Assembly (NCBI RefSeq): GCF_010093535.1
Contig: NW_022985186.1
Span: 296,949 to 360,948, forward strand
Direction of reading: 5' to 3'
Origin: Lindgomyces ingoldianus
Taxonomy: Eukaryota; Ascomycota; Dothideomycetes; Pleosporales; Lindgomycetaceae
Length of the DNA: 64,000 nucleotides
The notes beneath the pieces were generated by a model. That model worked only from the letters and a program-made list of their open reading frames with translations, made no database searches and was not told the origin of the DNA. Positions 2,363-57,880 of the stretch are shown here, piece by piece. Position 1 is the first letter of the stretch, and the number at the start of each line of letters is the position of its first letter. Position numbers and translations under genes: made by a program.

Positions 2363-3347
2363 TTACATGCGGAGTCCGTCACGGCCACCCCCGCCTGAAT
2401 GCAAGTCCTTGAAATCTAAGTTCTTGATGACACCAGCAACTGCAACGCTCCTATTGTCAGCACTCACATCCGTGATGTCTTGGTCGATTCCCAACTCTTC
2501 CCCCGAGGTGTTAATAAATCCGGTGAGGGCCGAGCTATGGTTTGTTGCTTTCACACCTTTAATCTTCTGACCCGTGCGCTGATAGATTGTTTTGGAAAGA
2601 GCTTCCTCACACATCTCTTTAAGGGCGTTGTTAGCGGCTTGCTGTCTCCCGAGCTCTTGGAGAAGCACCTGTCTGCTCTGTTCTGATTCCTCGGTTTGTT
2701 GTGATACATGGCTTCGCTCGCTGCTCCTGCTCAGCGTAAGTTGCTGGACACTGCGGTCTATCTCGGCTGTTTCAGCGTCTGCCCGGGTAATTTGCTGCCG
2801 AACGACGACCTCGTTCTGTTGAAGCATTATATCCTTCATCTCCTTCATGAGATTCTCTTGACGGGACGTCGTAAGACTGCAATTTGTCAGAAGCATGGTA
2901 TATCTGTAGGGGCAAGGTTGGGTACATTGTCGCTGTGGAAAGAGCCACGCTAAGAGTGCCTTTGCAGTCGCTGAGCTGCCCTCTGAATGTCTTGATATGC
3001 TCTAGCCCGAACAATCCAACCTTCCATCTATCCATCCAGAATAACTTGTCCTCTGTGGAATGCTTCATCCAACGCTCCACTCGTGACTGAAATGCTGTAC
3101 ATGCTCTATCGGTATTCTCAACAGCATACCTGATCTGGTCGCTCAACACGATTTGCTCAGATCCGCCTTGCAATGCTTTGGCCAGACTTTGCAGAACGGG
3201 CTGGACTGCTCGAAGGTCGGTGCCAATATCCTTGACAGTATTGGGAGCCTCTTTGATATGGTCGACGGTCTTGGCGAGGAACTGGACGCTCTGGATAGCA
3301 GCCGTAGTAATGCCTACAATAGAGGCAGTAATGCTGAGAGGGTCCAT
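2363..3347 (-). CDS. PigL_N (HeLo-like) domain protein with two C-terminal amyloid-like repeats; putative NLR-partner effector
   Basis: Two exons (3347-2926 and 2876-2363) joined by a 49-nt GTACCC...CTGAC...CAG intron give a 311-residue protein. The start MDPLSITASIVGI is the classic beginning of the PigL_N/Helo-like N-terminal domain of fungal STAND-associated proteins, so it is preferred over the upstream ATG at 3371. Residues about 1-140 are this helical domain. Residues about 145-240 are Gln/Glu-rich with heptad-like spacing (probable coiled coil). The C-terminus carries two similar segments, residues about 246-266 (IKGVKATNHSSALTGFIN) and 275-295 (ITDVSADNRSVAVAGVIK), followed by a Gly-rich tail. 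There is no NACHT domain in this protein; the NLR is the divergent neighbour. HeLo-type domains in HET-S and HELLP form membrane-active oligomers after amyloid templating. That role is inferred here from layout and motif resemblance only. Confidence 0.82.
2411..2563 (-). other. two tandem HET-s-like (HRAM-like) repeats, r1 and r2
   Basis: r1 is encoded at about 2563-2500 and r2 at about 2476-2411, 29 codons apart. Aligned without gaps they share I-x-x-V-x-A-x-N-x-S-x-A-x-x-G-x-I. HET-s also has two repeats of about 21 residues near its C-terminus, separated by a linker. Assignment to the HRAM class is by eye. Confidence 0.6.
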
Positions 3348-3587
3348 TGCTCGGAAGAAGACTTCAAACAATGTACTGAAATGTCTTCAATTAGAATAAA
3401 AGGAGATGGCTGTCAAAATGGCAGACGAGGCGACGGGTTATAACCAATCAACACTCATGCCTTGGCGCCGCCATTTCAATGAGGAGGCTTGACGGCTTCA
3501 TACACTGCTGCACAGTAACACGAGCGCATTCCAGCGCAAGAGTATTTCGCTTGCGTTCTGGCAACGCAGCAGCGGTGACGTTTTGCA
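3348..3587. promoter_or_regulatory. shared divergent promoter region
   Basis: These 240 bp separate the ATG of the PigL_N gene from the ATG of the NLR gene on the opposite strand. The two genes must share or overlap upstream control sequence, which would favour co-regulation of receptor and partner. No specific factor-binding site was recognised. Confidence 0.6.
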
Positions 3588-6500
3588 ATGGCTAGCGGCT
3601 CGTTACCCCACTCGCTCCACATCCATGGTACGTCCGCTACCAACGGCGGCCAGAGCTTTGCTGGTCTGAACCTAGGAACTATCAACTACGCCAAAAATGA
3701 CAACGGCGCTTGTAAGTACATACGCTCAAGCTTCACGGGGACGCAAGCTGACTTTGTAATCTAGCCCTGAACGAGGTGCTCAAGAGCCTGCCGACCGCCA
3801 AGGACGCGCCGTTCAACGCGTACGGGCGACAGCACGACCCTACTTGTCTGCCCGACACCCGCGTCGACCTCCTCCATGAGATACACGACTGGGCTGATGG
3901 TGAACACTCACCAGCCATCTTCTGGCTGAGCGGCCTGGCCGGCACCGGCAAGTCGACCATCGCGCAGACGGTAGCCAAGGAATACCATGGAAAGGCTCGA
4001 CTTGCAGCCAGCTTCTTCTTCTCGCGGGCCGGTGCAGACGTCAGCCACGCGGGGATGTTCATTACGAGCATCGCAGCGCAGCTGGCAAACAGCATACCGG
4101 GCTTGAAGCCCAAGGTCTGCGAGGCGATAGCCAAGCACCACGACATCGCCAGCCAGTCTATTGACGATCAGTGGCACGAGCTAGTGCTCAGTCCGCTATC
4201 GAGCCTCGACGAAGGAGAAGAACACTGGCCGAGATATGTCGTTATCGTTGACGCGCTGGACGAGTGCGACGACCAGAACAATGTCCAGCTCATTCTCCAG
4301 CGTCTGGTGGAAGTCCAGTCACTGCAGGGCACTCAGCTGCGTGTGCTTCTGACGAGCAGGCCGGAGTTCCCTATCCAGTACGGGTTCACCCAGGTGCGAA
4401 GCGATAAGCACCGAGACTTTGTGCTCCACGACATCGAGCCAGCAATCGTAGAGCACGACATTGCAGTGTTCTTGAGACACCAGCTCGGACTCGTCGGGAA
4501 AGGGTGCGGGTTCGCAGCGGGCTGGCCAGAGGAGAAGGCTATCGCGCGTCTAGTGCAGAACTCCGGTGGGCTGTTCATCTGGGCTGCAACAGCATGTCGG
4601 TTTGTAGGAGAAGACCACCAACTTGCCGAAGGACGACTATCGTCGCTTCTCCACCAAGGAGGTGACGGGACACTTCCGCCCGAGCGCAAGCTGGACGAGA
4701 TCTACACCACTGTTCTTTCCAACTCCGTCCAAGGGGGGCACAGCGAAGCAGAGAGCCAGGCGCTGCACGAGCTGTTTCGCCAGGCTGTCGGGCCCATCGT
4801 CACGCTGCAAGACCCGCTGTCCGTAGCGAGCCTTGTGGAGCTGCTCGGGAAAGATGTGGCAGCGTTGAAGAGGACGTTGGGTAACCTACATTCGGTGCTT
4901 GACGTGCCAACGAACGAGTCGAAGACGGTCCGGCTGCTGCACCCATCATTCCGCGACTTCCTTCTTAATCAGGGCAGATGCTCGAATCTCCGGTTTTACA
5001 TCGACGAGCAACAGGTCCATAGCAAAATGTACCAGCACTGTTTGCGAGCAATGTCGAAGCACCTGCAGCGCAATATCTGCAATCTCCGGCATCTAGGAGC
5101 TCGCAAAGCTGATTTGAGCAGGATTGAAGCAAAGAGACACATCCCAGCTCATGTCCAGTATGCATGCCGGTTCTGGGTATACCACTACCAAAGGAGCGCT
5201 ATAGATACGGACAGCCGCTATGATATTGAAGAGTTCCTCCAAAAGCACTTTCTTTATTGGCTCGAATCACTTGCATTGCTTGGCCGTGTCTCTAATGCAG
5301 TTGATATGGTCCATGTGTTGAATTCAATGTTTTCGGTAAGGCATTACTTCTATAGAGGAGTGATAATTGTAGCTGACCTGCAATACAAAGCAAAGGGGAC
5401 AACCTCTAATACGAACAAAGCTGCGTAATAAGGTTTCAACATTTCTGTCAAGCCTGAACCTTAAGACGCATAACATTTCAGCAACCCCTCCTGGCACCGC
5501 TAGCTCGAGTCTACAAGCCCTAGTTCATGATGCAACACGCTTTATTCTGGCTTTTCGACCCGCTCTTGAAGAAGCACCGCTTCAAGTATACACTGCTGGA
5601 CTAGTGTTCAGTCCGAAGGCGAGCATTATTAAGAAGACATTTGCGGAAGAAGCTCCAGCTTGGGTCACATGCATGCCAGTGTTAGAGGACTGGAGCCCTG
5701 ATTTGGAGACCCTCAAAGGCCATTCGGATTGGGTCATCTCTGTGGCCTTCTCACCCGACGGCAAGACGCTGGCGTCGGCGTCAGNNNNNNNNNNNNNNNN
5801 NNNNNNNNNNNNNNNNNNNNNNNNNNNNNNNNNNNNNNNNNNNNNNNNNNNNNNNNNNNNNNNNNNNNNNNNNNNNNNNNNNNNNNNNNNNNNNNNNNNN
5901 NNNNNNNNNNNNNNNNNNNNNNNNNNNNNNNNNNNNNNNNNNNNNNNNNNNNNNNNNNNNNNNNNNNNNNNNNNNNNNNNNNNNNNNNNNNNNNNNNNNN
6001 NNNNNNNNNNNNNNNNNNNNNNNNNNNNNNNNNNNNNNNNNNNNNNNNNNNNNNNNNNNNNNNNNNNNNNNNNNNNNNNNNNNNNNNNNNNNNNNNNNNN
6101 NNNNNNNNNNNNNNNNNNNNNNNNNNNNNNNNNNNNNNNNNNNNNNNNNNNNNNNNNNNNNNNNNNNNNNNNNNNNNNNNNNNNNNNNNNNNNNNNNNNN
6201 NNNNNNNNNNNNNNNNNNNNNNNNNNNNNNNNNNNNNNNNNNNNNNNNNNNNNNNNNNNNNNNNNNNNNNNNNNNNNNNNNNNNNNNNNNNNNNNNNNNN
6301 NNNNNNNNNNNNNNNNNNNNNNNNNNNNNNNNNNNNNNNNNNNNNNNNNNNNNNNNNNNNNNNNNNNNNNNNNNNNNNNNNNNNNNNNNNNNNNNNNNNN
6401 NNNNNNNNNNNNNNNNNNNNNNNNNNNNNNNNNNNNNNNNNNNNNNNNNNNNNNNNNNNNNNNNNNNNNNNNNNNNNNNNNNNNNNNNNNNNNNNNNNNN

Positions 6501-7107
6501 NNNNNNNNNNNNNNNNNNNNNNNNNNNNNNNNNNNNNNNNNNNNNNNNNNNNNNNNNNNNNNNNNNNNNNNNNNNNNNNNNNNNNNNNNNNNNNNNNNNN
6601 NNNNNNNNNNNNNNNNNNNNNNNNNNNNNNNNNNNNNNNNNNNNNNNNNNNNNNNNNNNNNNNNNNNNNNNNNNNNNNNNNNNNNNNNNNNNNNNNNNNN
6701 NNNNNNNNNNNNNNNNNNNNNNNNNNNNNNNNNNNNNNNNNNNNNNNNNNNNNNNNNNNNNNNTGTGGGATGCCGGCTCGGGGAAGGCGCTGCAGACCCT
6801 CAAAGGCCATTCGGATTGGGTCAGGGCTGTGGCCTTCTCACCCGACGGCAAGACGCTGCCACAGCTAGCAAAGCTAGCGTCTGGGTCTAGCGATAACACA
6901 GTCCATCCACACTTAGGCATGAGTTCGGATGGTAACTGGATAAGCTATGATGCAGAGAACATCTTATGGTTACCATCAGAATATCGGCCGTTATGTAGTG
7001 CAGTATCTAACAATATGATCGGCATTGGTACTAGTCATGGGAGGGTATGGATATGCAATGTTGAGCGTAATAAGCTTAATGCGTCCGAAGGCGTTAGTAC
7101 TATTTGA
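3588..7107 (+). CDS. NACHT-WD40 NOD-like receptor (NLR) with N-terminal amyloid-like motif; contains an assembly gap
   Basis: Exons are 3588-3711, 3765-5335, 5391-5424 and 5482 onward. Introns are 3712-3764 (GTAAGT...TAG), 5336-5390 (GTAAGG...AAG) and 5425-5481 (GTAATA...CAG); all keep phase. The short N-terminus (residues 1-42) holds a motif resembling the neighbour's C-terminal repeats. The NACHT domain follows: Walker [10 protein letters not shown] (about 98-106), Walker [11 protein letters not shown] (about 200-209) and LLTSRPE (about 236-242). A linker with [16 protein letters not shown] precedes WD40 repeats starting near residue 654 (LKGHSDWV...[12 protein letters not shown]). After the gap another repeat and a conserved C-terminal tail ([14 protein letters not shown]...GIGTSHGRV) end at 7107. 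This is the HET-E/HNWD type of fungal NLR: WD40 ligand sensing, NACHT oligomerisation, and activation of a cell-death effector. The last repeat has an extra PQLAK and lacks the usual RLWD. The frame across the gap cannot be checked. Confidence 0.9.
3621..3686 (+). other. N-terminal r0-like amyloid motif of the NLR
   Basis: NLR residues 12-33 begin [17 protein letters not shown]. Without gaps this matches r1 of the adjacent PigL_N protein at I, G, A, T, N and G, and r2 at I, S, A, N, A and G. In the Podospora NWD2/HET-S system the NLR carries one such N-terminal motif that templates the effector's two repeats. The segment also resembles the GxxF-xGxNxGxI look of other fungal NLR amyloid motifs, so its class is open. 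Confidence 0.55.
5785..6763. other. assembly gap (979 N) inside the WD40 array
   Basis: The flanks are nearly identical WD40 units: the tract from CTCAAAGGCCATTCGGATTG onward recurs at about 5712 and 6799 with differences only in a few bases. With a 126-bp unit, repeat phase requires 18 + 126n missing bases. 979 fits neither this nor the reading frame, so the gap length is an estimate. Confidence 0.95.
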
Positions 7108-39097: not shown

Positions 39098-42000
39098 TGT
39101 CACGATTGTGCACAAGTAAGGTTATAGAGCTTCACAGAGGTCTAGTTTAATTACTACGTGAGGTATTATAGTAGGTACAAGACATTGTGTAAAGAACAGA
39201 AAAGTTTAAAAAAAAATTAGTAATTAAATACTTAACTTAGAAGTCTAAGCACTTTAAGTATAAATTAAGCTTATTTTAAGTTTAGTTAGTGTTAAAGTAG
39301 TTTATGCTTAAGTTTATGTCTATGTTATGTTATATTTATGTTAGACATACACTAATAATACTTTAGTATATGTCTAATACAGTTATGTCTAGGATCTAGG
39401 GAGGATACTGTAACAGTACCCCCCTCTTTATTAAGAAGAGAATTCTTTACATTAGTAGTTTTAGCATTAAGTTGTCTTTATTAAAGTATAAGTTTAGTTT
39501 AAATAGGTATTAAGCATAAAATTAAGTTACTATAGAGTTTTTTTATAAGGCTTTTATAAGTTTTTATAATAGTTTGTTATATCTAGTCTATTTTATAAGA
39601 TATTTATAAATATATTTTTTTTTATTAAACTAAATTTATTTAACATCTTCTATAATATATTTTAGTTTATTATTTATAATAATAAGTTTAAGTAGCAGGT
39701 TTAGCTATTTAAGTAAATAGTTAGATTTAAAGGCTACTTAGCACAGCAATAATACATAGAACACAAGGTGTATCTTTATGCTGTTAGGTAGGATTAATTA
39801 GTAAGCGTGTAATAAGACTATATAGGCTACTATAAAAAAGCTAAGGTTTTTTTAATTAAGTTTCTTTAATTATTAGTTTATTTAAATATTTCTAGTGTCT
39901 AGCTAGACTTTCTTACTAGCTGCATACATAAGGGTAGAAGTTTAGAATTAGTTTATATACTCTTATTAAAAAGCTTAAGCCTATATAAGCTTTTTATAAA
40001 TATATTTAGATATATTTTAGATTTTATTAATAAGTTTATTTACATTTATTACTTATATAAATTAATAAGTTAGTTAGAAAGTATTTAAAAGTAGTTTAAA
40101 TTCTATTTAAAAGTAGTATTTATAGTTTACTAAAAATAAAAATACTTATGTTAATTTAAATATTATATTATTAGCTTTAAACTATGCTATAGCTAACTAT
40201 TTTACCTAGTTATTTTACTAGTAGTTTATATACACTTATAAAACTTATTTTATTATAGTGTTTATGTTCTTAGTTTAGCTATTAGTCTTTAAGTAAAAAG
40301 CTATAAATAAATAAAAGATAATTTAAAGCTATTTATAGAGTTTATTCTAAAAGGCTAAGACAAACTACATACCTCTATCTAATATAATTATGTTAGGCAG
40401 GCTATAGTAAACTTATATGTATTAGTAGAATAACTAGGCTATATTAGAGGCAGTTATAAAGGAATATAGTATTAAGTGTTAATACTTAGTTAAGTAATTA
40501 ATAACTACTATAATATTTATATACTTTTTAAATAAAAGTAAGTTTATAATAAAATTAATTAATATATTTTTTAAGCTTATTTAGAGATTAAAAGTAGTTT
40601 AAGTAAGCTATTATACCTTTTTTAAAAGGCCTTTACTTTACAGTAAGTATAGCAACAGAATACGTATTAGCGTATAGTATAGAACATATAGGGCTAGTAG
40701 TACTCTCTTTATAGTAGGTTAAGAGTCTTTTCTCTGCCTAGGTGTCCTTTAATAGGCAAGTTATGTATAATTTAAAGTAGTTTAATTTTTAGTTTATTAG
40801 AATTAAAGATTATAAGTTAGTTATAGTAATATAGCTTACTATTTTAGTTTTTATAGTTAGCTAGTATTACTTTTTTTAACTAACTAGCGCTATTTTAAAG
40901 CAAGTTTAAAGTTTCTTAAATAAATTTATTATTTAAATACTTATTAGTAATAATTTAATTAATTATCTAATTTATTTTATTTAAGTTAAAGTTTAAAAAT
41001 AGCTTAAGTTAAAGTAGAGTTTAGTGTTAAGCCTTTTACACTTTTTTTTAAGTAAAAATATTTTAGAATTACTTTATAAAGGCATCTAGTTTTCTTCTAT
41101 CTTAACTAAAATAATAAGTAATTTTAAAATTAAAACAAAATAAGTATTTAAACTAATAAGCTTATTAATAGCTAAGTTATTTTATAGTTATAAAGTACTA
41201 TAAGTTCTTATAGTTAGATAGGACCTATATTAGATGCGCTGCACTTTCTAGTTTAGGTTGCTATTATTTAAAGTAGTGTACTATAGCAAGTAATTTTTTA
41301 TTATAGATTTTATAATTACCTTCTATAAGACTTATTCTTTTTAAAAAGTATATAATAGGCTTAATAGTCCTATCTAGCTTAGTCTAGAAAAGAACTCCTG
41401 CTACTACATAGTCTAAGGCATTAGCTTCTATAAGTATTAGTAGTTTAAAGTTAAAGTAGTAGAGTATTAAGGCTTTAGTAAAAGCTTTTTTTAGCTAGTT
41501 AAAAAACTATTAGTAATTTAAGTTAAAGTTAAATTAAACTTTTTTTTTAGTAAGTGTAATTATAAGGCTTACTAGCTATAAAAAGTTATTAATAAATTAT
41601 TAGTAAAAGTTAGTAAATTTTATAAAGGCTTAAATATTTTTTATATTCTTTAGGTATTACTAATCTAGTATAGTCTAAACCTTAATAAGGTCTATTTAGA
41701 TGCTATCTATAAAGATTACATATTCTAAATATATAACTTTTAATTAGTAAAACTTATATTTATTTATGTTAAGTTACAAACCTACTTCTTCTATAGCCTT
41801 TAGCACTAGGCGTACATGCTGTTTATGCTTTAAAAAGCTATTACTATAGATTAAAATATTGTTAATATTTATAGTATAAAACATGTCTAGGTAGGGTTAG
41901 AGTAAGTTATTTATAAAATGTTAAAAAGTACTAGGCGTGTTAGCTAAGCTAAAGGGCATTACTAGGTACTTAAATAGTTTATATTAGGTCTAAAATGCTA

Positions 42001-44754
42001 TTAGCTACTTATTACCCTTTACTATTCTTAGCTTATTAAAGGTAGTAATAATATTTAACTTTATAAAATACTTTACTTTACTTAGTTAGCTTAGAGTTTT
42101 TTATAAAAAAAAATTAAGTATTAGTTTTTAATAGTAATAGTATTTAGTTTTTAGTAGTTAACATAAAATTAAAGCTTACCTCTAGGTTTTTTTATAAATA
42201 GTATAAGTAACACTACTAGTAAAAAGCTAGCTTAAATAAACCTTTTTTTTAAGTTCTTATTAAGGTATTTTTAAAGCACTTTTAATTTATTTAGTAACAT
42301 CTTATATAGTAGCCTATAACTAGGTTATTTACTAGGCTTAAGAGTTATTTAGTAATTATATAGACATTATATTAAAAGCTTATTAGACTTATTTTAAAAA
42401 AAAACATATAATAAGTTATAGTAGTTTTAAAAGACTATTATTTTTAAGTTAATATATTTTTAAAAAGCTAAAGCTTAGTTTATATTAGAAATTATAACTA
42501 CATAAATTTTATAATCTAGTTATTAAGCTAAGGTTATAAATAAAGCAGGTTCTATGTAGTAGATGTCTATTTGCTGTTTAAGTCCTAGTTTATGTTTAAA
42601 TTAGGTAAGTAAAAGTTTTTTAAAAACTTTTTTTTTAAGTTTAAGTAGTTATTAAATTATTTTATATAGCCTATTTTAGTAAAAGGCCTAGCTTATTAGC
42701 CTTACTTAGGTAGTTCTTCTCTAGGTTATTAAAAAGTAAGTTTAAAAACTTTTTATATTAAGTGCTATTTAAGTGTTGTTTAGGTGTAAGTGTAAGTATA
42801 CATCTTAGCATTAAAAAAAGTTAAAGTTTAGAACTTACTTTTAGTAATTAAAGGCAACTTTATGCTAATATAGCTATAGTTATTTTAGAATTAGGTTATA
42901 ACATCTTATGTTTATTACATAAAGCTTAATCTACTTCTTATAGTATTAGTAGGTAATTATAATAGTTATAGTATAAAAAATAAAACTTTTTTTAAGTTAT
43001 TTTTTATTAAATCTAGTTAAGTAAATTATTTAAGTAAGTAGTGTTAATTAAAGATTTAGTTTACGCGCTAGTTTTTTATTAATATAACTTATGCTATTTA
43101 CTTCTAAGTTAATAAAAGCTTATATTAAAGCTAATATAGTTTTTTATTATAAATATATAAGAATATTAACTTAGTACTTTTAGTTATTAGTAGGGGACTT
43201 AGCCTATAGGTTAGCAAAGATCTAGTGTTAAATTAGTCCTAAAGGGTAACTTAGCCCTAGAACAAGCCTTTTTACAGGCTTCTACTGCTATAGCTGCAGC
43301 TATGTTAAGAGTAGTAAAAAAGATTAAGGCTTAAATATAAGTTAAAGCTCTTATAAAAATAAAATTAAAATAGTAAAAATTTTTAATAAGTACTAGCAGC
43401 GCTACTTATATAGACTTAAGAAAAAAGAATAAAGTAGTTTTAAAAAATATAACTATGCTTACTACACTTAAAGTATTAACTTTTTTTTTTATAATTTTTA
43501 CACTTTTTAGAATTAACTAAAGTATAATTTAAATTAATTTTTATTATGTTAGAGTTCTTATTTACAACTACGCTAGTTTAGGGGTGTATTAGAGCTTATA
43601 CAGGGAGGAACCTTATGTTATTATTATAGGTAGTAATTAAGTTTGCATACACATTAAGGTTGTTTAGAAGGGGTTCTCCTACTATAGCGCGTTATAGTTT
43701 AGTTAAGAGGGAGTTATATAAGGCTATAATTAGACTTATCTTATTTAAGCCTATATTAAATGTAAGTTAGTAAAACTTAGTAAAGTGTAAAGTAAAGCTT
43801 TTTTTTTATTATAAAGTGTTTAGGCAACTTAAGGCTATTAACTTTTTATTTAAGTTTTTATAAGTTACTTATAAAAACACTATAAATTAATCTAAGTTAA
43901 TAATATCTTTATTTATTAGTAAGTTAATTAAGGCTGTTATATTATAGTTAAGTTAAAAGTAAGCATATAGTAACTAAGAGTGTTTAAAGGGGAATTAGTC
44001 TACATTTCTTTTAAGTTTATATTAGAGCTTATATAAAAAGAAAAGTAGGTCTTTTTATTTTCTATTAAATAGTAGGGGATTAAAGAGTTAGTTAGATTTT
44101 ATTACTAAGTTAAAAAAGTTATAAGTTATAAGTAGTATTAAGTAAGAAAAAGTTAAGCTATCTTTAGACTTCTAAGTAAGCTTTAAGGCTAGTAAGTTCT
44201 TAGTTCTTACTACTATAACAGAAGTTAAGGTAAAAATAAACTACTTAATAATATAAAGCTATTTTTTAAAGTCCTTTTAAAAAGCTTTAAAGCTTATAAC
44301 ATAGTAGCTTTTTTATAAAGTAAGCGCTTTTTAAAAAGCTTTTTAGCTTACTTTAATAGCTTAAAGTTATGTAAGTACTAAGCTTATTAAATTAGATTTA
44401 AAGGCTATTCTTAGCTAAAGTTTTAACACAACATAATGTTATAGTTATGCACAAGTAAGGTTATAAAGCTTTATAAAGGTCTAGTTTAATTACTATGTAA
44501 GGTATTATAGTAAGTATAAGACATTATATAAGAAATAAAAAAGTTTAAAAAGAAATTAGTAATTAAATACTTAGCTTAAAAGTCTAAGCGCTTTAGGTAT
44601 AAATTAAGCCTATTTTAGGTTTAGTTAGTGTTAAAGCAGTTTATGCTTAAGTTTATATCTATATTGTGTTGTGTTTATGTTAGACGTGCACTAATAATAC
44701 TCTAGTACGCGTCTAATATAGTTATGTCTGGGATCCGGGGAGGATACTGTGACA
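39098..44754 (-). mobile_element. full-length Ty3-type LTR retrotransposon Q, RIP-degraded
   Basis: 318-bp LTRs at 39098-39415 and 44437-44754. The left LTR begins TGTCAC and the right LTR ends GTGACA. The target duplication AGTTG lies at 39093-39097 and 44755-44759. Next to the left LTR the plus strand reads GTACCCCCCTC, a polypurine tract on the minus strand, so the element points left. Near 41885-41780 the minus strand translates as INNILIYSNS followed by HKQHVRLVLKAIEEVGL, the Ty3 reverse-transcriptase catalytic region with catalytic Asp replaced by Asn. It is a different family from B, F and G. No frame is intact. Confidence 0.87.
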
Positions 44755-44796
44755 AGTTGTGGGGTTGTCAAAATGTCCTGCGCGGGACTTAATAGC

Positions 44797-47700
44797 TGTT
44801 ACAATCCTTGCTTCGGGAAGCACTCAGGTCTTATGATGTTCCTAGGGGAGAGTAGGACGGATGGTAGGGGCCAATCCGGTAGGGTGTACAGTCCTACGTA
44901 CAGGCTATTAGGCTATGGAGGGAGGTAGAGTGACCAGATTGTGGTTTGCCCTATGTGCAGCAGTAAAAAGGCTAGAGTTAAACAGTCCTAATAAACAAAG
45001 TTAGAGGTATATATAGTGTAAGATATATAAATAGTATTATAGCTCTTTAAAAAGCTAAATGCTACTTAGTCTATATAAAGAATAAACTAAATATTAAACA
45101 CACCTTCTAAAGGTTATTTAATGTAGGAACTATATACATGTGCTAGGGCGCTAAGGGGAGCTTCTAGGAGTCTATAAAAGCTTTGCTAAAAGGAGCTTTT
45201 ATAAGCTCCCTTTAGCTTCCTAGACTTACAGCCTACTTTTCTATTAAACAACGCATTCTTCTGTAACATTAGGCAGCTGTTGTAAGGCCGGATGTCCCAG
45301 AACGGGCCAGTATGGCCTCACCTGACCTGTTTGGAGGTCGTATGACCTGTGCTTCGTATATAAGCATGAATCCTGACAAGCGAAGCTTGGCAGCGATTCG
45401 TCTCTCTTACAATACACTCCTATCTTTCTCCGAAAGCTTGCTCTCAGTGCTATCCGTGCTACTTACCATCCCATATTTACAGCTGTGCTATCTCTATGTC
45501 CTCTAACTAGTCTTTAAGCAAGCCCTGTCCTAATCTAGCTAGATTGTAGAGCACTGCTAGTGGAGTTACGCTAGTCTAACTATAAACTGTAACACGCTGC
45601 CCCTCCTCCCTAGCAGCGTCCTTACTACTCTACTTACATAACTGTGTTAGTAAAAGTTTGTTTATAAAGTGTGCATTTTTTTACTAAAAAGCGTTCTTAA
45701 CATTTATTTTTTTTATACTAAATAGCTTATTAGTTTTATTTATCTTATTATTTTTATATTACTTTTTATTTTAATCTTTTTTACTAAATAAAAATAAAGC
45801 CTTATAGTGCTTACTAGTTTTTAAAGTTATCTTATGTGTTAACTTTATCCTTAAATAAATGTGTTAAGTGTGTAAAAAAATATAGTAAGTGTAACACTTT
45901 TATTTCTAACACTACTTAGAATTATTTAAAGAAAAAAAAAAGCGCTTTTTTAAAAGGCTAAAGTCTTACAGGCCTAGGACTGTGTGTTATAAGATAAGTA
46001 GTAGGTTTAAGTCTAAAAATAACTCTATTTATAAAAAAAAATGCTAAAGGTAATAAATAAAAAGTGTTCTAAATAAAATTATATCTAAAAGTTACTAGAT
46101 CTGCTAAAGGCTTATTATATAAAGTACTTAAAAAAAGATCTCTTTTTCTTAGATAAAATAAAAGCCTTTAAAGCTAAAGTAAAAAGTTATTTTTTTTTAA
46201 CTTTTATTAGCTAAGACTTGTCTCTAAAGGCTGCTGCTATTTAGTAATAACATAGCTGTTCTTTTTAATATAGGTGCCTTATTGCCTAGCTAGTTTCTTC
46301 TAAATAAGCCTAAAAGTACTTTTATACTAATAGCTGCGCGTTTCTTAAATTCTTAGCTAGTTTTTATATATTTTTACTAGTAAGCTACTTTTTTTATTTT
46401 ACTAAAAACTTTTTTTAGTTTCTTTAATTACTTACTATATATTTAACTTTATATTCTATTTCTTTGTTTTTTTATTTTTAAGTAGATAAAAGAATTTTCT
46501 TAAATGCTTTTTTTAGTTTAGAGATATAAAACTATAGGTGTATTTTTATATGTAAGAGAAGCTTAAGCTTGCAGTTATTTTATTAAGTTTAAAGAACTTT
46601 ATATAGTTTTATTTTTTTTTTTACTAGCTTTTTAAAGAGTCTTAGTATTTTTAAGTTTTTAGTGTTAAAATATATATAATCTTCTAGGTAAATCTCTAGT
46701 TTTAGTTACTATAATTTATTTATATTTTTTTTTATTATTTCCTTGCTAGTTTTAGCTTTTACAGCTAATTTTTTATGTATCTAGCGTAGGTCTGTTAGCT
46801 AATTTATTAACTTCTATAAGTTTATAAGTTAATTTCTATGTAATGTAAAGTAAGAGTTATATTTAAAATTAGCTTTATATAGTGTTTCTTTTATTATAGC
46901 TAACTTTATATTGTTAATAGCTAACTATGCTATTAAAAGCTATACTGTTTAATTATTTTAAGTGTAAAAAATATACTTTTTTAAATACTTTTCTACTTTT
47001 GCATTTACTCTCTTAGTCTAACTGTCTATTTACAAGTAATAAGCTATTAATAGCTTATATGTTATGCTAAGGTGCCTTATTACTACTTTTTAAAAACTAC
47101 TAGTAAATAACTTATTTTAGTTAAAAATAATAATCTTAGGGCATTTATATACTAATATTATATTTTATTTTAATTTATAAATAAATTCTTTAGCTATTAT
47201 TATTTTTTCTAAGGGCTAAGTGTATAGGTACTTAGTAGTTTTATCTAAAGCTACTATAATTATATTACATATTCTTTCTATCTCTAGTTCTTTTAATAAA
47301 GGCAGTTTTATAATAAAATTTATTATAATTATTATCTATAGTAAATTTAGAGCTTTAATTAGTTAAAGGTATCTATAGGCCTTATGCCTTTATAAGTTGT
47401 TTTTATTATAGGTATTACACTCTCTAAGCACTTCTATGCATAGCTGCTTTACTTTTAGTATTTATTAAAAAATAGCAGCCCTTAGCTTCTTTTATAAGGT
47501 GCCTATTTTTAGGTGTCTAAACATTAGGGATTTATAATATTCTTAGATTAAATTCTTCTATTCTTACTTACACACTATAAGCGTGTAGCAGTCTTTTATA
47601 GGTCTAGGTCTATTATAGACCTATTCTTCTTTAGTTTTTTTAAAAAGGGTAAATTTTTTAGTTCTTTCTTCTTTTTTATTAAAATAGTCTAGTCTCTAGC

Positions 47701-50700
47701 TAAGAGTGTTAGCCTATTAGTTTTATGCTTTTAAAATGTGTTTAATAATGCAGTTAAACTGCGCAAGTTCTATAGCCTATTTAACATGTATAAGTAAGAG
47801 TTTCTTTACTATTAAAAATGTAACTAAGTTTATATAGTTTATTATAATATAAAAGAGTTTTGCTATCTTATGTAATTCTGTAGCCTATACTCTTACAGCG
47901 TTTAATATTGCTTTTAACTTTTTATTAGGTATGCTGTAACCTACTTTAAGCCCTAAGAACTTAGCAGAGTAGTACATAACTAGGTGCTACTTTCTATCTT
48001 CTTGTTTCTAGTAAAGCGCAGCTTTGCTAGCTCCTAAGGATGCGTCTGTGTAGATCTTAGTATCTAGGTGTAGGTTATACATTCTTAGCACTAGCTTAGC
48101 TATTATAGCTTACTTTAACACTATAAATGCTTTATTTATTTATAGGGTCTAGATAAATTTTACTACTACTTATTTCTTAGTTATAGTGTTTATTAGTAGT
48201 ATAGTAATTTTAAAGTAATCTTTAATTATTTGTTTAATGTAGCCTAATAGTTTTAGAAATCTTTTTACTTTTTTAACTATTATAAGTTCTAGCTATTTAA
48301 GTACTTTTTATATTTTAGCTAAGTTAATCTTTATTTCTTCTTTATTAATTATAAATTCTAAATATTTTATTTTAGTAATATAAAATTTACATTTAAAAAG
48401 CTATAAGTAAAGTCTATACTTTCTAAGCTATTTTAAGACTTTTTATACTTTCTATACATAGTCTTCTAAAGTATTTTTTAAGTAGATAAGAACATTATCT
48501 AAGTATACTAAAGTAAAGACATTAAAGTATAGATTAAGGGCTATATTAATAATGCGTTAAAATGTTACTAAAGTATTTATTAGGCTAAATAGCATTACTA
48601 ATAGTTTATAAAGTCTTTATAAAGTTTTAAATGCTATAAGCTACTTATCTTCTTTTTATATTCTTATCTTATTAAATTTATTTTGTATATTAAACTTTAT
48701 AAAGTACTAGGTTCCTTTTAATTAATTTATAATATTTTATATAATTAGTAAGAGGAACTAGTCTTAGATTATGTTATTATTTAGAGTTTTATAGTCTTAA
48801 CAGACTTAGATTTTTTCTTTTTTTTTTTTTAGCAAAGACTATAGCTAAGGCTACTAGGCTATAGCTCTTATAAATATAGCCTTATACTAATATCTTATTA
48901 ATATATTCTTATAAAGCTTTCTTTTGCATCTTTATTAAAAGGTAAAGCTTATAGGTTTTTAGGTTAGGATCTTTTATTAAGTTAATAGCATAGTCTTAGG
49001 GCTAGTGCAGTAGTAGTTCTCTAGGGTCCTCTAGTGTCTTAAACATGTCCTTATAGTCTTTATACTTAGGTAGGATGTAGCCTTTTTTTTAGATTTATAT
49101 AATGCTAATTTATTCTACATCTTTATCTTTTTTAATTTTTTTATAAGAGACTTTTTTAAGGGTTTTTTTTATTATTTTTACTACCTAAGCTTTTAGCTTT
49201 TAGTAAAAAAATCTTTAAAGTTTCTTTTTCTTAGAGTAGTAACTACTACTTTATTTTACCTATTTATAGACTAGGCATTAGTTGTTATAGCATGCTAGCT
49301 AAGTTATACGCGCATAGTTATTAGAAGTTTTTATAGTTATAGTTTTTTAATTAATTATAAAGTTATATATTCTAAGCTAGTTATAGCCTAGAATTATGTT
49401 ATATTTACTTTTTAGTAAAAGTATGTTTATAGACTTTTAGTCTTTTATATTTAAAGTTTTAAAGTTTTTTTTATAAGTCTTTAGGTTAATCTATTCTTTA
49501 CTATACTTTATTAATAATGTATTAGTAAGGGTTACCTTAAATAAGTTTTTTTTTATGTAAAATAATATGCTTTATTTATCTACCTAATTCTTATTTATTA
49601 TAGTAAAGGTGCATCTGCTGTCTACTAGGGCTAGTCTAGGCTGCCCTTTATATGTAAAGGTAGTTGTTAGGCTATGTCCTGCCTTTTATTTTACTATAAT
49701 TACTGCTACTATGTTATATTTAACTTCTTTATTAAAAAAAGAGTATAAGTTAATGTTTTATAAATTATTATTAAACTTATTTTTTTTTTATAAATTTAAT
49801 GTTTATAGTTATAGTAGTTAGTTACTTTATATTTATAATCTTTAACTAAGTAGTGTAATATTAGATAGTCTTTTTTTCTTACTACCTTCTACTAAAAGTA
49901 GTAGAATCTGCAGTTGTCTTATTCTTTACATATTACCTATTCCTTCTGCTTATGTAGGGGGGCTGTCTAGTAGGTGTAGCAATTTGTAGTTTTGCAGGCT
50001 AAGGCTGTTCCTTACTATAGGCAACTATTGTAGTTTCTTTTTTATATAGGCTACTATTCTACTTAATGTTTATTATTCTAGTGTTTAACATAGTATTATT
50101 GTGTACACTAGTACTAGGGGTACAGACACTTATTAGGTCTATGTAATATGTTAAGGGGACTTTTTTAAGTCTACTATAGGTATTCCTTTATTTGTACTAC
50201 CTGTATAGAGTAATTTTTCTATTAGCAATTATTAGTACTATAGGTGCTACTTCTGCACAGAACATATTATTTATAGTTCTGTTATATTGCAAGAGCTTTT
50301 CTAGAGATTACTAGGCTTAAAAGTAGTATCTTAGGTTTTTTAGGCGCTAGTTATAGTACTTTAAACTTAGTAAGTTTACTTAGCTATTTTAGCTTTTAAT
50401 TTTTAATTTTAGTAAAAAATTACTATTACTTTTTTTTATTTATAATGTTATATTTAACTTTAGCTATTTTTTATATAATGTTAAATGTTAAGTAGTTATT
50501 GCTAATGTTTATTTAGTAAAGTAAGACTATATAATTACTTAAGTAATTATGTTATAACTTACACTTTTAGCACTTATATTTTTAAAACTATTAGGAAAGC
50601 TCTTTTACTAAGGTACTAGAGGTCTAGTTTTAAAAAGGGAACTATTTTTCTTTTTTTTAGATATTTATAATATATTTTTAGATTTAAGTCTCTTTTTTAT

Positions 50701-52688
50701 ATTTTTTAAAAATTATAAGGTCCTACAACACTATATTAAGGCTACTAAAATTTTAAATAACTACTTTTTAATATAGTTTAGGGCAGTTATTTAAAGAGTA
50801 GTTTTCTTTATATTACTCGTAAAGCTTATTATTTAGTCTTCTTTATATTTTCTTATTTATAAGGCTATATTTAGCAGTAATAGCTTTTATTATTATAGTA
50901 GTATTTTTATTCTCCTCTTTTTAGAAGTTTAGGTAGTTTTAGTAGAAATGTTCTACTTTTTTATAGTTTAGGTAGGCCTTATTTTTTAACTACTTTTACT
51001 ATTTTTTTTATTAAAGGTAGCTTATTATGTCTTAAAACTTAGTTTTTCTTTAAAGAGAGGCTTTATATATGCTTTACATAGCTAAGGTCTATTAGCTTTT
51101 TATTATATTATAAAAGCTTTTTTTTTAGAGACAAACTTTAGCTTTTAAAAGGTTCCCTTTAATTTTTTTTCTTTTTTACATTTTTTATAGTAATTATTAT
51201 AAGTTGTTGCTTTCTTAATATAGTCTTTAAAAGTAGTTAGTTAGTCTATGTGCATAAACTTATCTTTTACTTTATTATTTAGTTTATTATAAAACATGTA
51301 GCATAGAGCTTTTTAGTTGCTCTATCTATATATAGCTATTTGCTTTCTAAAGCGCGCTGCATAGTTTTAGACTAGTCTGCTGCCCTATCTTATGTTATCT
51401 AGTCTATTAGCTGCAATTCTTTTTTTATCTAAAGTCTTATAAATAGCTAATAAGGCTACCTTAAAATTTTTAACACTACTAAATACTTTTTTAGTTTTAG
51501 AGTTAAGTAGTACACTATTAGCTCTAAAGTCTATCTAATTATTAGTGTAAAGTTAGAACTAGATTATAGAGGGGCCTTTTAGATGTAATCTTATTTAGAA
51601 AATTATTTCTGCATTAGTTTAAAATGCTTTTTTATTATATTACATATAAAGGTAGCATTTAGTAAAGAATAGTTAAAGGTTTTTTAATAATTTTTTAAAA
51701 AGCTTTAAAAAGGCTAGTTTTAAAGCCTTTTTAGCTATAATACTTACTTTATTTATTAAGATATTTTAAACTTTTACTAGCTTTACTTATAGTTTATGTA
51801 TCTAGTAAGCTTAAGTAGTAGCCTTATAAAAGTTAATAAAAGGCAGAGGGCTTTATAAATTTATAGTTTTTTAGTAAAAGTTAGTTACTTTTTACTTAAG
51901 TTTTAGTAACTTACTAACTTTATTACTTATTTACTAGAGTTTCTTAATATTATTTTAGATTAAGTTAATTTGTTTTATAAAAATAGCTTTGCTTTAGGTA
52001 GAAACTTTTATAGATTCTAATAGCATAGTGTAAGCTATATTAAAATCTAAATTATATTATAAAGTTACTATACTTTTTAAAAAAAGTAGTGTTTAATGTT
52101 ATAATTTTTACTTTAGAAAGTACTTAGGTCTTATAATATTTTTAGAGAAAAGTAAAATAGATAGTAGAGGCTAATCTAGTAGAGTGTACAGTCCTACATA
52201 CAGGCTATTAGGCTATAAAGGGAGGTAGAGTGACTAGATTATAGTTTACTTTATATGCAGCAGTAAAAAGGCTAGGGTTAAATAGTTCTAATAAATAAAG
52301 TTAGAGGTATATATAGTGTAAGATATATAAATAGTATTATAGCTTTTTAAAAAGCTAAATGCTACTTAGTCTATATAAAAAATAAACTAAACATTAAACA
52401 CACTTTCTAAAGGTTGTTTAATGTAGGAACTATATACATGTGCTAGGGCGCTAAGGGGAGCTTCTAAGAGTCTATAGGAGCTTTACTAAGGGGAGCTCCT
52501 GCGAGCTCCCTTTAGCTCCCTAGACTCGCGGCCTGCTTTCCTATTAGACAACGCATTCTTCCGCGACGTTGGGCAGCTGTGCTGTCTCCGTGTCCTCCAA
52601 CTGGTCTTTAAGCGAGCCCTGTCCCAATCCAGCTAGATTGTGGAGCACTGCTGGTGGAGTTACGCTGGTCTAACCATAGACCGTAACA
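44797..52688 (-). mobile_element. full-length Ty3-type LTR retrotransposon G, same family as B and F
   Basis: LTRs at 44797-45594 (with a 201-bp solo LTR D nested in it) and 52097-52688. Without the nested element both are 592 bp. The target duplication is ATAGC (44792-44796) and ATGGC (52689-52693); the one difference is a G-to-A change. The reverse-transcriptase box near 48515-48490 reads VYLDNVLIY on the minus strand. No frame is intact. Confidence 0.83.
45281..45481 (+). repeat. solo LTR D, copy 1 (201 bp)
   Basis: Starts TGTAAGGCCGG and ends ATATTTACA; target duplication GCTGT at 45276-45280 and 45482-45486. It contains a TATATAAG box. It is not RIP-mutated although it sits in a RIP-mutated LTR. 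Confidence 0.85.
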
Positions 52689-55600
52689 ATGGCGCAATAT
52701 TCTGCTGAACCCTGTTAGAATTAGGTTACAAAAATGTTAGGATATAGCTAGAGACTGTCTCTATTACCTATTAAAATCTGACCTGGTTTGGGCAAAAAGT
52801 GGTAGAGCTACAATAATTCTTAGTTGAGCTAGTGCATGGTGGAGGAGGTTTAGAACCACGATATTGTTACGGCCAACGGACGGACCGTAATGACCCAATT
52901 AGCTGTTCCACACAGCCCAAGCGACGTCGGATGGAAGACGCTTAGCTCCACGTTGAACGAATCACGTGACAGGACGGATGAGGAATGGCTCCGGCTTTTA
53001 GACAAAAGCCTAGCAGAATGCATTATCTAATAAGACCACAGGTCTTGCAGGTCTGCAGGTTGTGCAGGCTATGCAGGCAACAAGCATGCAAGCATGCATA
53101 GCATGCACTGCATGTAAACCCTATGTATATAATCTTAATTACAACTATAGTTAGAAGGATGTAATTACTATTTAGTCTTTACTTACTTAATAGACTAAAA
53201 GGCATTAAAACCTTTCTAAAAAAGACATTGCTGCCTTGTATATCTTGCACTATATATACCTCCTTTTCTATTCTTTTAGATTAGGTTTGCTAGCTCCTTA
53301 TACAGCTACTAGGCTAAACTACAACCTGCCTTCTAGAACCCTGCCTTACCTACACTCTACTTAACAGACTGTACACCTAATCTAGCTAAGTCCTTCCCTT
53401 TCTCTCTAACATTATTATAGGCTGTAGTGCTTATAAAAATACTATTTTGTTAGAGTAAAGATTATAACAGTAATTACTACTGCCTGTAAAGTATAGCTAC
53501 TACCTTAGACATTAGCATAACAGGTGCCTTAGCTGCTAGCACTAGCTAGACCCCTATAGCTATTAAAAAAGAACAAAACTACTAGATATTATATTTCTGT
53601 AATAAGCTAGAGCACTTTAAGTAACTTCTCTAGCAACAAGCATAGTAAGGATCTTTAAATATCCTACAACTACACGCCCTTTAGTTAGAAGTAGTAAACC
53701 TTAGAAATATTACATAAAAAAAACAGTACTAAATTAAAAAAGACCCTACGCCTAGCCCCTCTTAAGGCATTTAATAGCTTAGCTAAAGATCTAAAACCTT
53801 TCTTTATAAGGTGCTACCTCTACATGTAATATAATAAGAGCGCTTTTAAAATAAATAAAGAAATAATCTTATAGATAGGCCTACACTTAAAAGAATTGCC
53901 TGCTATATAGTTCTAACCTTATGCTAATAACTAAATAAACTATTAAATAATAGAGGAACTCTTACTACTAGAAATATAAAAGGTCTTTAAAAATATTAAC
54001 TTTTTTAAAGTAGCCCTAACTATAATCTATAGGCTAGTTAACTAAAAAAAATTAGCAGTTAATAAGATAGACTTTTTATAACAAGAAAAAAGCTCTATCT
54101 AATACTACACAGCCTACTTTAGGGAACAACTAGCTATCTGCAGATAGACAGATTAAAAAGTAATAAGATAAATATTCTATAATAAGCTTTTAGATATAAT
54201 TAAAAATAAATTTACTTACACTAGAAAGCTTAAGGACTTTAAAAAATATATTAAAAAAGCACTTACTTATAATAAAAGACATGCTAAGTAACATAAAGAA
54301 AAAAAATAGGCGTAACAACTTCTAAAACTAAATAGTTTTAAAAAAAAAGAAGACTTTATAATTTAACAGCAAACTAATAAATCTTAGTTACACTAAGTAT
54401 ACACGTAGCTTCTCTAAAAAAAAAGAGTAGTTCCCTTTAAAGTATAAGGCTACTTTTAAATAAGAAACAAAGAAAATAGCTTAAAAAAAAGCATGCCTTA
54501 ACTATAAAAAAGTAAGCTACTTTTGTTAAAAATACCTAGACTTTAAGCAACTAAAGAATAAAAATGTTAGGTTAGCTATTAAAGCTATGTTTACTAACAA
54601 AGGCTTAACTTATAAAGAAATACATAACAGGCTTAACAAATAACTTTGCTAAAGATGTAGAGCTAATTACAAATTCTCTAATTATCTAGTAGACTATTAG
54701 AAGGTAGTAGTCTAGAAAAAAGACAGTATCTTTAGGGCTATTAAATAAGCTGTAGTCCTTAAAGGATAGCAGAACCTAATGTAAGTAGCTAACTATGTTA
54801 AAAATGTAAGAAAAAGAGAGAAACTATACTCTTTTAAATAAAGTAGACTAAGAGTCTTAATTAAAGAACTTAAGCAACAGTTTAAATAAGAGAACTACTA
54901 AAAGTGTAGAGGACTTTATAATTACAACCTCTGCAGAATAAGGCTTTATAAAGTAGCTTTAGATAACAACTATAATATGTATAAAGTTATAAAAAGGATT
55001 ACTATAGTCTATTATAATATACTAAATAAAAAAGAATAATAAAAATTCTTTAAAAAGATACTAGTAAAAGAAAAAGGCCTTAACTAGCACTAGACACCTC
55101 TCTAAACTCTAGCCCTATTAAGTAAATAACTAAACACACTACCTCTAGCTCTAGCAGTAATAAGAAAAGAGCTAGAGGAATAATAAATTTACAGATATTG
55201 CATTTTATGCAGAAGCAAGCAACACAACAACTTCTAATGTAAATATAAGGGCCACTTCTTATAGATAATTAGGACAAAAGAATACCTATAATAGGCCTAG
55301 ATACAGCCTATACTAATTTACACTAACCTTAAATAATGCCTTTATATGTAGTATTTATGCATAAATAAGTACTGTGTCTAGCACTAGCTAACTAAACACT
55401 AGGCTAGATAGTAGCTAATTAGAGCACAGGAAAGCAAATAGTTTATAGACACCCTAATAAGATTAGCTACTATGTGTAAAATGCTAAACTGTTAATACTG
55501 CAGCACAGGCCTAACTTATAAAAAGAAACCCTAGATTAAATGTAAAAAGGCCTCTAATTACACCTTCTACTATTTTTAGTAAAAAGCTAACTAATAAAAT

Positions 55601-55719
55601 AATTAACTTTTATACTACTATAAAGTAGAAAGCATTAACTGTCTAGTTAAAAACTACATAGTAAAAGACTATTAAGAATTTAAAGTTACTGCTAACTAAG
55701 TAAATAAATAAATACATTA

Positions 55720-57880
55720 ACATACTTTATAGGCAAGTTGCTTACACACCTAAGTTACTTACTTTTGCTAAAACCCCACCACACTACTCTTTCTACACTA
55801 ATGCATTCCTAACAACACTACTTAAATGTGTTAAAGGAATGTTAGATGTAGCTTACACTTTAAGCTTTTAAATAAAACATAATACTTTTTAACTAACATG
55901 CTACAGCTATCTATAGAGTCTTTTAAAAGATAATAAGTAACTAACACGCTAAACAACCTTTCTAAGCTAATTATATAGCTAACTTATAAAAGCTAGATAA
56001 TAATAAAAAGCAGGTAATTATTTAGCACATACTTAAGCTAAATGCGCAAGGATTTCCCCCCTAGCTAGCAGCTATAGCTAATATAGCTAATTCTTTACAC
56101 ACTAAGCATAATATAAGCTATATTAGCATAAACTAGCCTAATATGTTTATTAAGTGTTACTTAGAGCTTAAAGTAAAGTTTAAGTGTAAGTATAACTATA
56201 AAAGTGCTTTTTATAAAGATCTTATAGTAATTTAAGGCTAGTTTAACCTTATAGAGAATATTAAAGCTAAGTATAGCATCTAGAATAACAACATGTACAA
56301 CTTTAATAAAATAGGGTTTATAATAGGCTAGATATTTACTAGAGCAGTTGTTATAGGTTTAGAGAGATAAGGACAGCTAAAAGCAGTTTAGCTAGGCAAC
56401 TAGAAGTAGACAACAGCTATCTAAAGCATTAATGCTAAAAAGTAAGCTATTTTGCCCTTTATTATTTTTTAGGGTGGTAACTACCTTTTAAACTAGTACA
56501 AGAAGGAAAATCTACTCTAGAATTAAGTTATTGTAATCTTTAAGCGCAGCTAGACTACTAATTAGCTTAGTCTAGACTAGTTAAAGCACTTTAACACGCA
56601 TATAAAAAAGTGTACTGTTAGCAGCTACTGTCTGCTAGTTATTAATAGCTATAAGAGCTATAACTTACTTTATTTCTAGTAATACTATAAAAATAATAAA
56701 ATTATTACTATCTACATGCCTTCTTACTTATTGCACCTTCTATAGCTACTTAATATAGGTTGTTTTACTCTTTTAAAGAAAGTGTATAGGTGCTAAGCTA
56801 AAAACCTTATGCATAACTAGATTACTTATATTATAAAAATAAAGTTCCTACTATGCTTTAAAGTAGCTTATAATGCTGTAATTACTTTTAGTAATATCTA
56901 AGAAGGGTTTTAAGGCGCTAAATTAGTTCTTTTTAACCCACAACAAGTTATAATAAGCCTTAATGTAAAGTTACGCACTTTATTACTACTACTACCTATA
57001 TACAACAAGCCCTAGCAGTTATAAACCCTAAGTAATACTCTAGAACTTAGGTTATAATTAATGCTTATAAAGACAAAGATTTAAAAGCATATAAATAGTT
57101 TACTAACTTCTATAGTTAAGGTGTTTAAAAAGGTCTTAAAGGGGGCAACAATAATTGCGCATAAGCTAGTGTTAGTGTAATAGAAAATTACTAAGCTTTA
57201 AGTAGCTAATAAGGCTGCTACGCAACATAAATTACATAAAAAAAAGCAGATTAAGGTAGAAGAGACTTTAATAATTTAAGAAAGCTTACGCTTAACAGCT
57301 CTAAAGGAGTTTAGGGCGCGCAGTAACAGGAAGAAGGTAAAGAAGCAGGTGCTGTAACGGCGCAGGCAAGACAATGGGTCCGAATGCGGTATGAATCCAC
57401 TCAGAGGCATATGGGAGTGCGTGGGGACTCAGAGACCTGGGAATACCAATGACACCTATAGGCCTTGTACGTAGGATATCAGAAAACTCCCGAGCTAGCT
57501 ACGGGGGCGAGGTGCGACTAAATACATGAGGGAATAGGGGTAACTGCGGGGGACTGGGTCGAGTCATGGTCGGGGCCGATACGGGGACCCTTCGGATAGG
57601 ATCCGAGCGACCCGAGATGGAACGATTCGTAGAATCGTTACAGGTGCAAGCTAAAGTAAGTAAGCCATCCTAAAGGCGCTGCGGACAGTGCAATTAGACT
57701 AGGCATAACGCGCAAATGTGTAAGCAAGAAGCAGAAGTAGTATCTAAATAATATTCTAGGCTGTACTGTACTATATAGTGCCAGAGCGGGTTGTTATAGG
57801 CCATAATAGAGTTTGTTGGGGTGGGGTCTTGGCAAAAGTGAGCGACTCGGGTGTGTGAGCGACTCGCCCATGAAGTATGT
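55720..57880. mobile_element. family C DNA transposon, copy 3, with a nested solo LTR
   Basis: Flanked by TA (55718-55719 and 57881-57882). Ends ACATACTTTATAGGCAAG and, reversed, ACATACTTCATGGGCGAG. Subtracting the 290-bp solo LTR N and its 5-bp duplication gives exactly 1866 bp, equal to copies 1 and 2. Confidence 0.85.
57353..57642. repeat. solo LTR N (290 bp), not RIP-mutated
   Basis: Starts TGTAACGGCGCAGG and ends GAATCGTTACA; target duplication GGTGC at 57348-57352 and 57643-57647. It is GC-rich inside an AT-rich host transposon, so it arrived after RIP of the host or was too short to be recognised. Confidence 0.85.

Follow-up and report, generated by a model that had tools for sequence, protein, structure and literature searches.

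The two head-to-head genes at positions 2363-7107 of the window analysed here (a stretch of 64,000 nucleotides from Lindgomyces ingoldianus) raise the question of whether an NLR receptor and its neighbour are wired together by an amyloid motif and, if so, of what kind that motif is. An earlier note on this DNA had proposed an amyloid-wired immune or cell-death module with a PigL_N executor; the layout and the HRAM repeats bear this out, but not the idea that the executor repeats, r1 and r2, form an uncatalogued class, nor that of a general co-variation with the receptor motif, r0. We favor the possibility that the two genes form an amyloid signalosome like HET-S/NWD2 and HELLF/FNT1, in which the executor is HRAM2-like and r0 belongs to a divergent class, here called class A (probability roughly 70%). 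The basis in hand consists of the gene anatomy, the domains, repeats that are conserved, in register and in agreement with the HRAM key, the predicted strands and the recurrent linkage of the two genes. Ligand sensing, oligomerisation, templating and membrane killing would follow by analogy with known relatives.

The two genes are divergent and their start codons lie 240 bp apart, the region between them (3348-3587, no strand) being delimited by the sequence and the gene models. The executor gene is on the minus strand (ATG at 3347, stop codon at 2365-2363) and has two exons. Exon 1 (2926-3347) encodes the helical domain of the PigL_N family (PF17111), named HeLo-like in PMC9815663; the Pfam match (E 8.5e-27; score 94.3 bits, cut-off 27.2) is at the N-terminus of this short protein. 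The intron of 49 bp (2877-2925, minus strand) is one of several possible splices and was picked for its GT..CAG sites; it gives a protein of 311 aa, the length of the homologue P0001 from Lentithecium fluviatile, which is 93% identical with 100% of the query aligned. Exon 2 (2363-2876) encodes a coiled coil followed by the two-repeat C-terminal motif region and the stop codon. Downstream of the executor, at 185-715 on the minus strand of the window, there is an open frame of 176 aa with a signal-peptide-like start (MKSLVLSAAAVLGAASALPAP) that perhaps encodes a small secreted protein.

The NLR gene is on the plus strand. Its first exon (3588-3711, from the gene model and relatives) bears r0 (3615-3674), which is thus carried on an exon of its own. 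Exon 2 (3765-5335) encodes the NACHT domain (NPHP3_N, PF24883, about 3878-4360, Pfam E 6.4e-32; NACHT E 1.2e-8) and the region that follows, and is colinear with P0096 at 94% identity. Exon 3 (about 5391-7107, stop codon at 7105-7107) encodes WD40 repeats, assigned by homology to P0096 in a tblastn search; its start at 5391 is taken from the P0096 alignment and other splices are possible. A run of 979 N (5785-6763) lies inside the WD40 region, and the repeats flanking it are near copies of one another. Elsewhere, the window has AT-rich blocks at 8001-34000 and 40001-56000 (GC about 0.21-0.39 in 2-kb steps) with a TpA/ApT ratio of 1.5-2.1 and depleted CA+TG. High TpA/ApT together with depleted CA+TG is the signature of repeat-induced point mutation (RIP). 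The gene pair adjoins one of these blocks, just outside it.

It had been claimed that the PigL_N protein ends in two motif copies, that the NLR begins with one, and that the three align gap-free with I, A, N and G in common (HRAM positions 5, 10, 12 and 19); all of this was confirmed. That r1 and r2 are repeats is certain, with 0 of 100000 shuffles reaching their similarity score. Gap-free counterparts of r1 (QKIKGVKATNHSSALTGFIN, HRAM positions 3-22; 2510-2569, minus strand) are present in 73 of 95 homologues, and of r2 (QDITDVSADNRSVAVAGVIK, HRAM positions 3-22; 2423-2482, minus strand) in 72 of 95. Orthologues without the C-terminal repeats would have spoken against the proposal, and every listed homologue long enough for exon 2 has r1; the 22 of 95 that lack it are all 238 aa or shorter, and r2 is cut off in a single homologue, P0042. 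The homologues come from many filamentous ascomycetes, including Alternaria, Aspergillus, Cadophora, Fusarium and lichen fungi, and the Podospora amyloid cell-death design would thus extend to a HeLo-like executor family across this range. One of them, P0050, is reported on 190 contigs of Aspergillus fumigatus and therefore seems to be common in that species; no partner NLR was identified for it.

In their details, r1 and r2 resemble published HRAMs. HRAM executors carry two C-terminal pseudo-repeats joined by a loop of 6-18 aa, and here the spacing from position 22 of r1 to position 3 of r2 is 9 residues (about 8 if whole 21-residue repeats are counted). The core of hydrophobic residues at 5, 8, 10, 16 and 18 with G19 is found in the executor repeats; the window r2 has all of these, and the window r1 has T at 18, where unique r1 sequences have T in 30% and A in 59% of cases. 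G19 is missing from 4 of 65 unique r2 sequences, one of which continues as unrelated sequence after QDISD. Charge complementarity, expected at the outward positions 4, 6, 7, 11, 12 and 13, was counted as present in r1/r2: among 70 unique repeat pairs, position 4 has opposite charges in 59 and like charges in none, with opposite/like counts of 24/0 at position 13 and 4/0 at position 7, and without support at positions 6 (0/1), 11 (0/0) and 12 (2/2). R/K at position 15 is absent from the homologues, which have mostly S/V/I/L/A in r1 and F/I/V in r2; according to PMC4518210 it is a preference of HRAMs and no requirement. The same source gives a key in which HRAM2 has Q at position 3, and r1/r2, with Q at 3 and no Q at 16 or 18, fit it. 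The executor repeats are thus most likely ordinary HRAMs, HRAM2-like by the published key, and the suggestion of a motif class not yet catalogued is unsupported for r1/r2, though it may hold for the divergent r0.

An AlphaFold2 model of P0001 places helices between residues 3 and 145 and strands at 245-251 and 256-262 in r1 and at 274-280 and 285-291 in r2. The earlier note had named a lack of amyloid propensity in structure prediction as a point of refutation; the executor tail is modelled as four beta-strands. The best PDB profile match to the repeats, in the same register, was 6EKA, which we take to be the prion domain of HELLF; the match is weak, and in a single-sequence search 6EKA came seventh (E 0.42), after six Msh2 chains (E 0.024) matched by the coiled coil. 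Foldseek searches with the full executor model returned mostly helical proteins, none at E 0.001 or better, and those with the tail model no significant match, HET-s 2RNM being second of 9 at E 3.5. The rank of 6EKA, the Foldseek results and the missing R/K15 all count against reading the locus as an amyloid pair.

There is precedent for PF17111-type executors wired to an NLR by an amyloid motif in the HELLF/FNT1 system (PMC7885112). As at our locus, the executor HELLF of Podospora anserina is HeLo-like and has two HRAM repeats at its C-terminus, and the adjacent NLR has one N-terminal copy (PMC7885112, PMC7889193). The differences are that FNT1 is an NB-ARC/TPR protein (PMC7885112) whereas the window NLR is of the NACHT/WD40 type, that HELLF is HRAM5 whereas Q3, A16 and A18 of the window executor fit the HRAM2 key, and that the class A r0 of the window is much further from r1/r2 than a second class of r0, class B, described below. 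HET-S/NWD2 of the same species (HRAM1) likewise has an executor with r1 and r2 and a neighbouring NACHT-WD NLR with r0, but HET-S has a HeLo domain and N at position 3, in place of the HeLo-like domain and Q of the window executor; a Pfam search of the window executor and P0001 gave no match to PF11558 in either. With the HRAM2 subfamily, whose published example is Penicillium roqueforti W6Q0M1/W6PZN6 (PMC5485727), the window repeats share Q3, the hydrophobic residues at 5/8/10/16/18 and G19 of the key in PMC4518210, but lack R/K at 15, and membership is assigned by this key. In HELLP/PNT1 and CgHELLP, too, an amyloid motif links a HeLo-like executor to an NLR (PMC7885112), but PP is a single pseudo-palindromic RHIM-like motif and the window motif a repeated HRAM. 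The HET-S/NWD2-type layout claimed for this locus agrees with the published one in that a HeLo-like executor with two HRAM repeats adjoins an NLR whose N-terminus bears one copy: the NACHT and WD40 gene lies 240 bp away and bears the motif, in its divergent class A form. Judged by these comparisons, the executor is most likely a further member of the HET-S/NWD2 and HELLF/FNT1 kind, and the unusual part of the locus is the r0 of the NLR.

The similarity of r0 to r1/r2 is significant but weak. In the given register, 27 of 100000 shuffles reach its score against r1+r2. Scored with a matrix of homologous r1/r2 from which the window's own repeats were excluded, r0 is the top position in a 702-aa part of the NLR (8.8 bits), a score matched by 2 of 66337 background windows and by 79 of 20000 shuffles of the first 45 residues of the NLR. 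A six-frame scan of the open frames of the window, with an HMM trained on homologous repeats and class B/C motifs (the window's r1/r2 included), put r0 second after the executor itself at E 0.77. An HRAM r0 occurs once, at the N-terminus, and has G19 and hydrophobic residues at 5, 8, 10, 16 and 18; the window r0 departs from this, having I5, A10, A18 and G19 together with non-hydrophobic T8 and S16, and L3 in place of a polar residue. These three substitutions, which recur in class A, and the modest similarity to r1/r2 also weigh against an amyloid pair. Since homology to r1/r2 and to class B r0 is still detectable, we consider r0 a divergent HRAM relative and not a typical member.

The N-termini of NLR relatives were sorted into classes among the best 120 of 1496 proteins found in a search with NLR residues 1-260. 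Class A (LxIxxTSATxGGQxFAGxNxGTINYA, with variations) comprises 18 relatives, class B (QLISGVSANxxSQVVAGTVHGSVNFG, with variations) 11 and class C (QHVSNLNADNGSTINVNV) 2; P0159, of doubtful class, was counted with the rest. By hhalign, class B (a profile of 10 sequences) aligns to r2 at E 6.6e-9, to r1 at 8.4e-7 and to r1/r2 at 2.4e-9 (probability 96%), and class A to class B at 5e-7 (probability 92%). Class A itself aligns to r1 at 4e-4, to r2 at 2.7e-3 and to r1/r2 at 3e-4 (probability 40%). As a control, another N-terminal motif group of related NLRs, PP-like in our reading by its NxGxQxGxN pattern (quoted in PMC9815663), aligned to r1/r2 at E 0.08; class A as a variant of this group was rejected at E 0.12. 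Based on these E-values, class A is a divergent HRAM relative, tied to HRAM most clearly via class B. Chance resemblance of short segments could be argued from the mere four residues common to all three copies and from the window-wide E-value of r0, but the conservation of r1/r2 in more than 70 homologues, the rank of r0 within the NLR and among background windows, and the chain of homology from class A through class B to r2 (compared with the control motif) leave this explanation extremely improbable; the homologues had largely refuted it already. When class B/C and r1/r2 profiles were run over all six frames in search of an alternative first exon, no significant B- or C-like exon turned up near the window NLR.

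Recurrent linkage is a further argument for a functional pair. Executor and NLR records were paired by eye on equal size of the longest contig; equal bp could mean different contigs and only short contigs would show real adjacency, and since every row represents a cluster by its longest contig, the counts are lower bounds. Class A NLRs were linked in this way to an executor in Lentithecium (1715727 bp), Alternaria tenuissima (10055 bp), Aaosphaeria (4421818 bp) and a metagenome contig (9457 bp), a class B NLR in Eremomyces (318057 bp), and NLRs of both classes in Pyrenophora tritici-repentis (8688 bp). Two further linked NLRs, in A. arborescens (253859 bp; no motif in the gene model) and on a metagenome contig (3866 bp; no motif in the fragment), have gene models that start at or just before exon 2. 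Among the best 120 of 1496, at least 7 of 31 motif-bearing NLRs were linked to an executor versus at least 2 of 89 others (Fisher p 0.001, in a test chosen after the data were seen).

The Pyrenophora records, with executor, A-type NLR and B-type NLR on 8.7 kb, also suggest another scenario, namely that the main target of class A r0 is another, unrecognised executor, that the r1/r2 executor is the partner of class B receptors lost from this genome, and that the head-to-head position is a leftover of a larger cluster. Class B is far closer to r1/r2 than class A, and class A r0 does not track the repeats of its neighbour. The co-variation foreseen in the earlier note was seen in one class B pair, that of Eremomyces, whose r0 ranks its own r2 first of 65 (own r1 29 of 61), but neither in the class B pair of Pyrenophora (own r1 19 of 61, own r2 14 of 65) nor in six class A pairs (r1 ranks 40, 12, 28, 31, 21 and 43 of 61; r2 ranks 9, 9, 39, 6, 48 and 32 of 65). 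That own-executor repeats do not rank above others is a point against the amyloid pair as well; because the repeats vary little, it is weak evidence against tight co-evolution in class A. Set against a different executor are six-frame protein searches of the Lindgomyces genome, which, at the sensitivity of such a search, found one r1/r2-type tail and one class A r0, no other segment matching the latter, and no class B r0. As the genome has one such tail, the adjacent executor is the only partner found for the window r0. Furthermore, class A NLRs share contig size with an executor in at least 5 of 18 relatives, two of these five (10055 and 9457 bp, with no class B listed) being short enough for adjacency, and r0, r1 and r2 match in register without gaps. 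We consider a different executor unlikely.

A decaying module, in which r0 has drifted and templates the executor no longer, seems considerably less likely still. Positions 8 and 16 that are no longer hydrophobic, the bordering AT-rich block with its RIP-like signature and a WD40 region that is not fully readable across the run of N could all be taken in its favor. Yet both genes have open, spliceable frames, the executor being 93% and the NLR 88-94% (by segment) identical to Lentithecium, and the pattern TSATxGGQxFAGxNxGTINY recurs with variations in distant fungi, Cladonia and Eremomyces among them, which drift would not preserve.

If the two genes do form an amyloid signalosome, known relatives suggest that a ligand would be sensed by the WD40 repeats of the NLR, whereupon the NACHT protein would oligomerise and gather its N-terminal r0 segments; these would adopt a beta-solenoid fold and template r1 and r2 in the executor, and the helical HeLo-like domain of the latter would then attack the cell's own membrane. 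Judging from the contig records, pairing each executor with a single cognate r0 gives an incomplete picture, as related loci have two r0 classes beside one executor. Eremomyces, for example, has one executor, and the best 120 of 1496 proteins include six of its motif-bearing NLRs, one of class A and five of class B; control of one executor by many NLRs has been suggested in PMC9815663. Of greater interest is whether class A and class B seed one and the same executor. Such natural loci bear on how much an amyloid seed can diverge from its target without losing the ability to convert it.

It is also conceivable, albeit tentatively, that r0 is an exchangeable first exon and that tandem NLRs around one HeLo-like executor swap classes A, B and C while their NACHT domains are homogenised. 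Our reasoning for this comes from Alternaria, in which NLRs that share an identical NACHT region change r0 class at the exon 1/2 junction, placed by correspondence to the window NLR exons: P0106/P0107 (class B) and P0109 (class C) of Alternaria alternata are identical for about 400 residues or more from the equivalent of the exon 2 start and differ before that point. P0106 and P0109 are recorded for contigs of equal bp; isoforms as the explanation were rejected, and the two taken as separate genes, because their C-terminal WD40 halves differ. On a tree of 39 NACHT regions labelled by motif (A, B, C or control), 11 changes of label are needed (minimum 3). Class B needs 9, with 170 of 500 label shuffles as low and thus no better than shuffled, and class A needs 7 against a shuffled mean of 13.2, clustered yet not in a single clade. 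On these alignments, r0 class in this clade follows the NACHT tree poorly. Precedent comes from near-identical NOD domains between which entire N-terminal domains have been swapped (PMC4986451, Table 2); no description of r0-class exchange was found in the literature examined, which is no proof of absence. If exchange is true, several sensors would converge on one amyloid executor via non-identical seeds, and receptor-to-executor wiring in fungal immunity could change in one recombination step.

The Lindgomyces ingoldianus genome (G000) has 25 PF17111 matches in all. A second signalling pair was sought in 20 regions covering 21 of these, with no significant motif match (best E 1.3); the remaining four comprise the match in the window and three that are linked to NACHT. 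PF17111 lies directly beside NACHT at C27:402514, C13:484244, C7:742847, C7:223942 and C41:149568, and these are probably HeLo-like-NACHT fusion receptors. Three close paralogues of the window NLR (L011, L013 and L014), judged by eye from their translations, seem to have other enzyme-like domains upstream of NACHT (hydrolase-like, PNP_UDP-like and HET-like).
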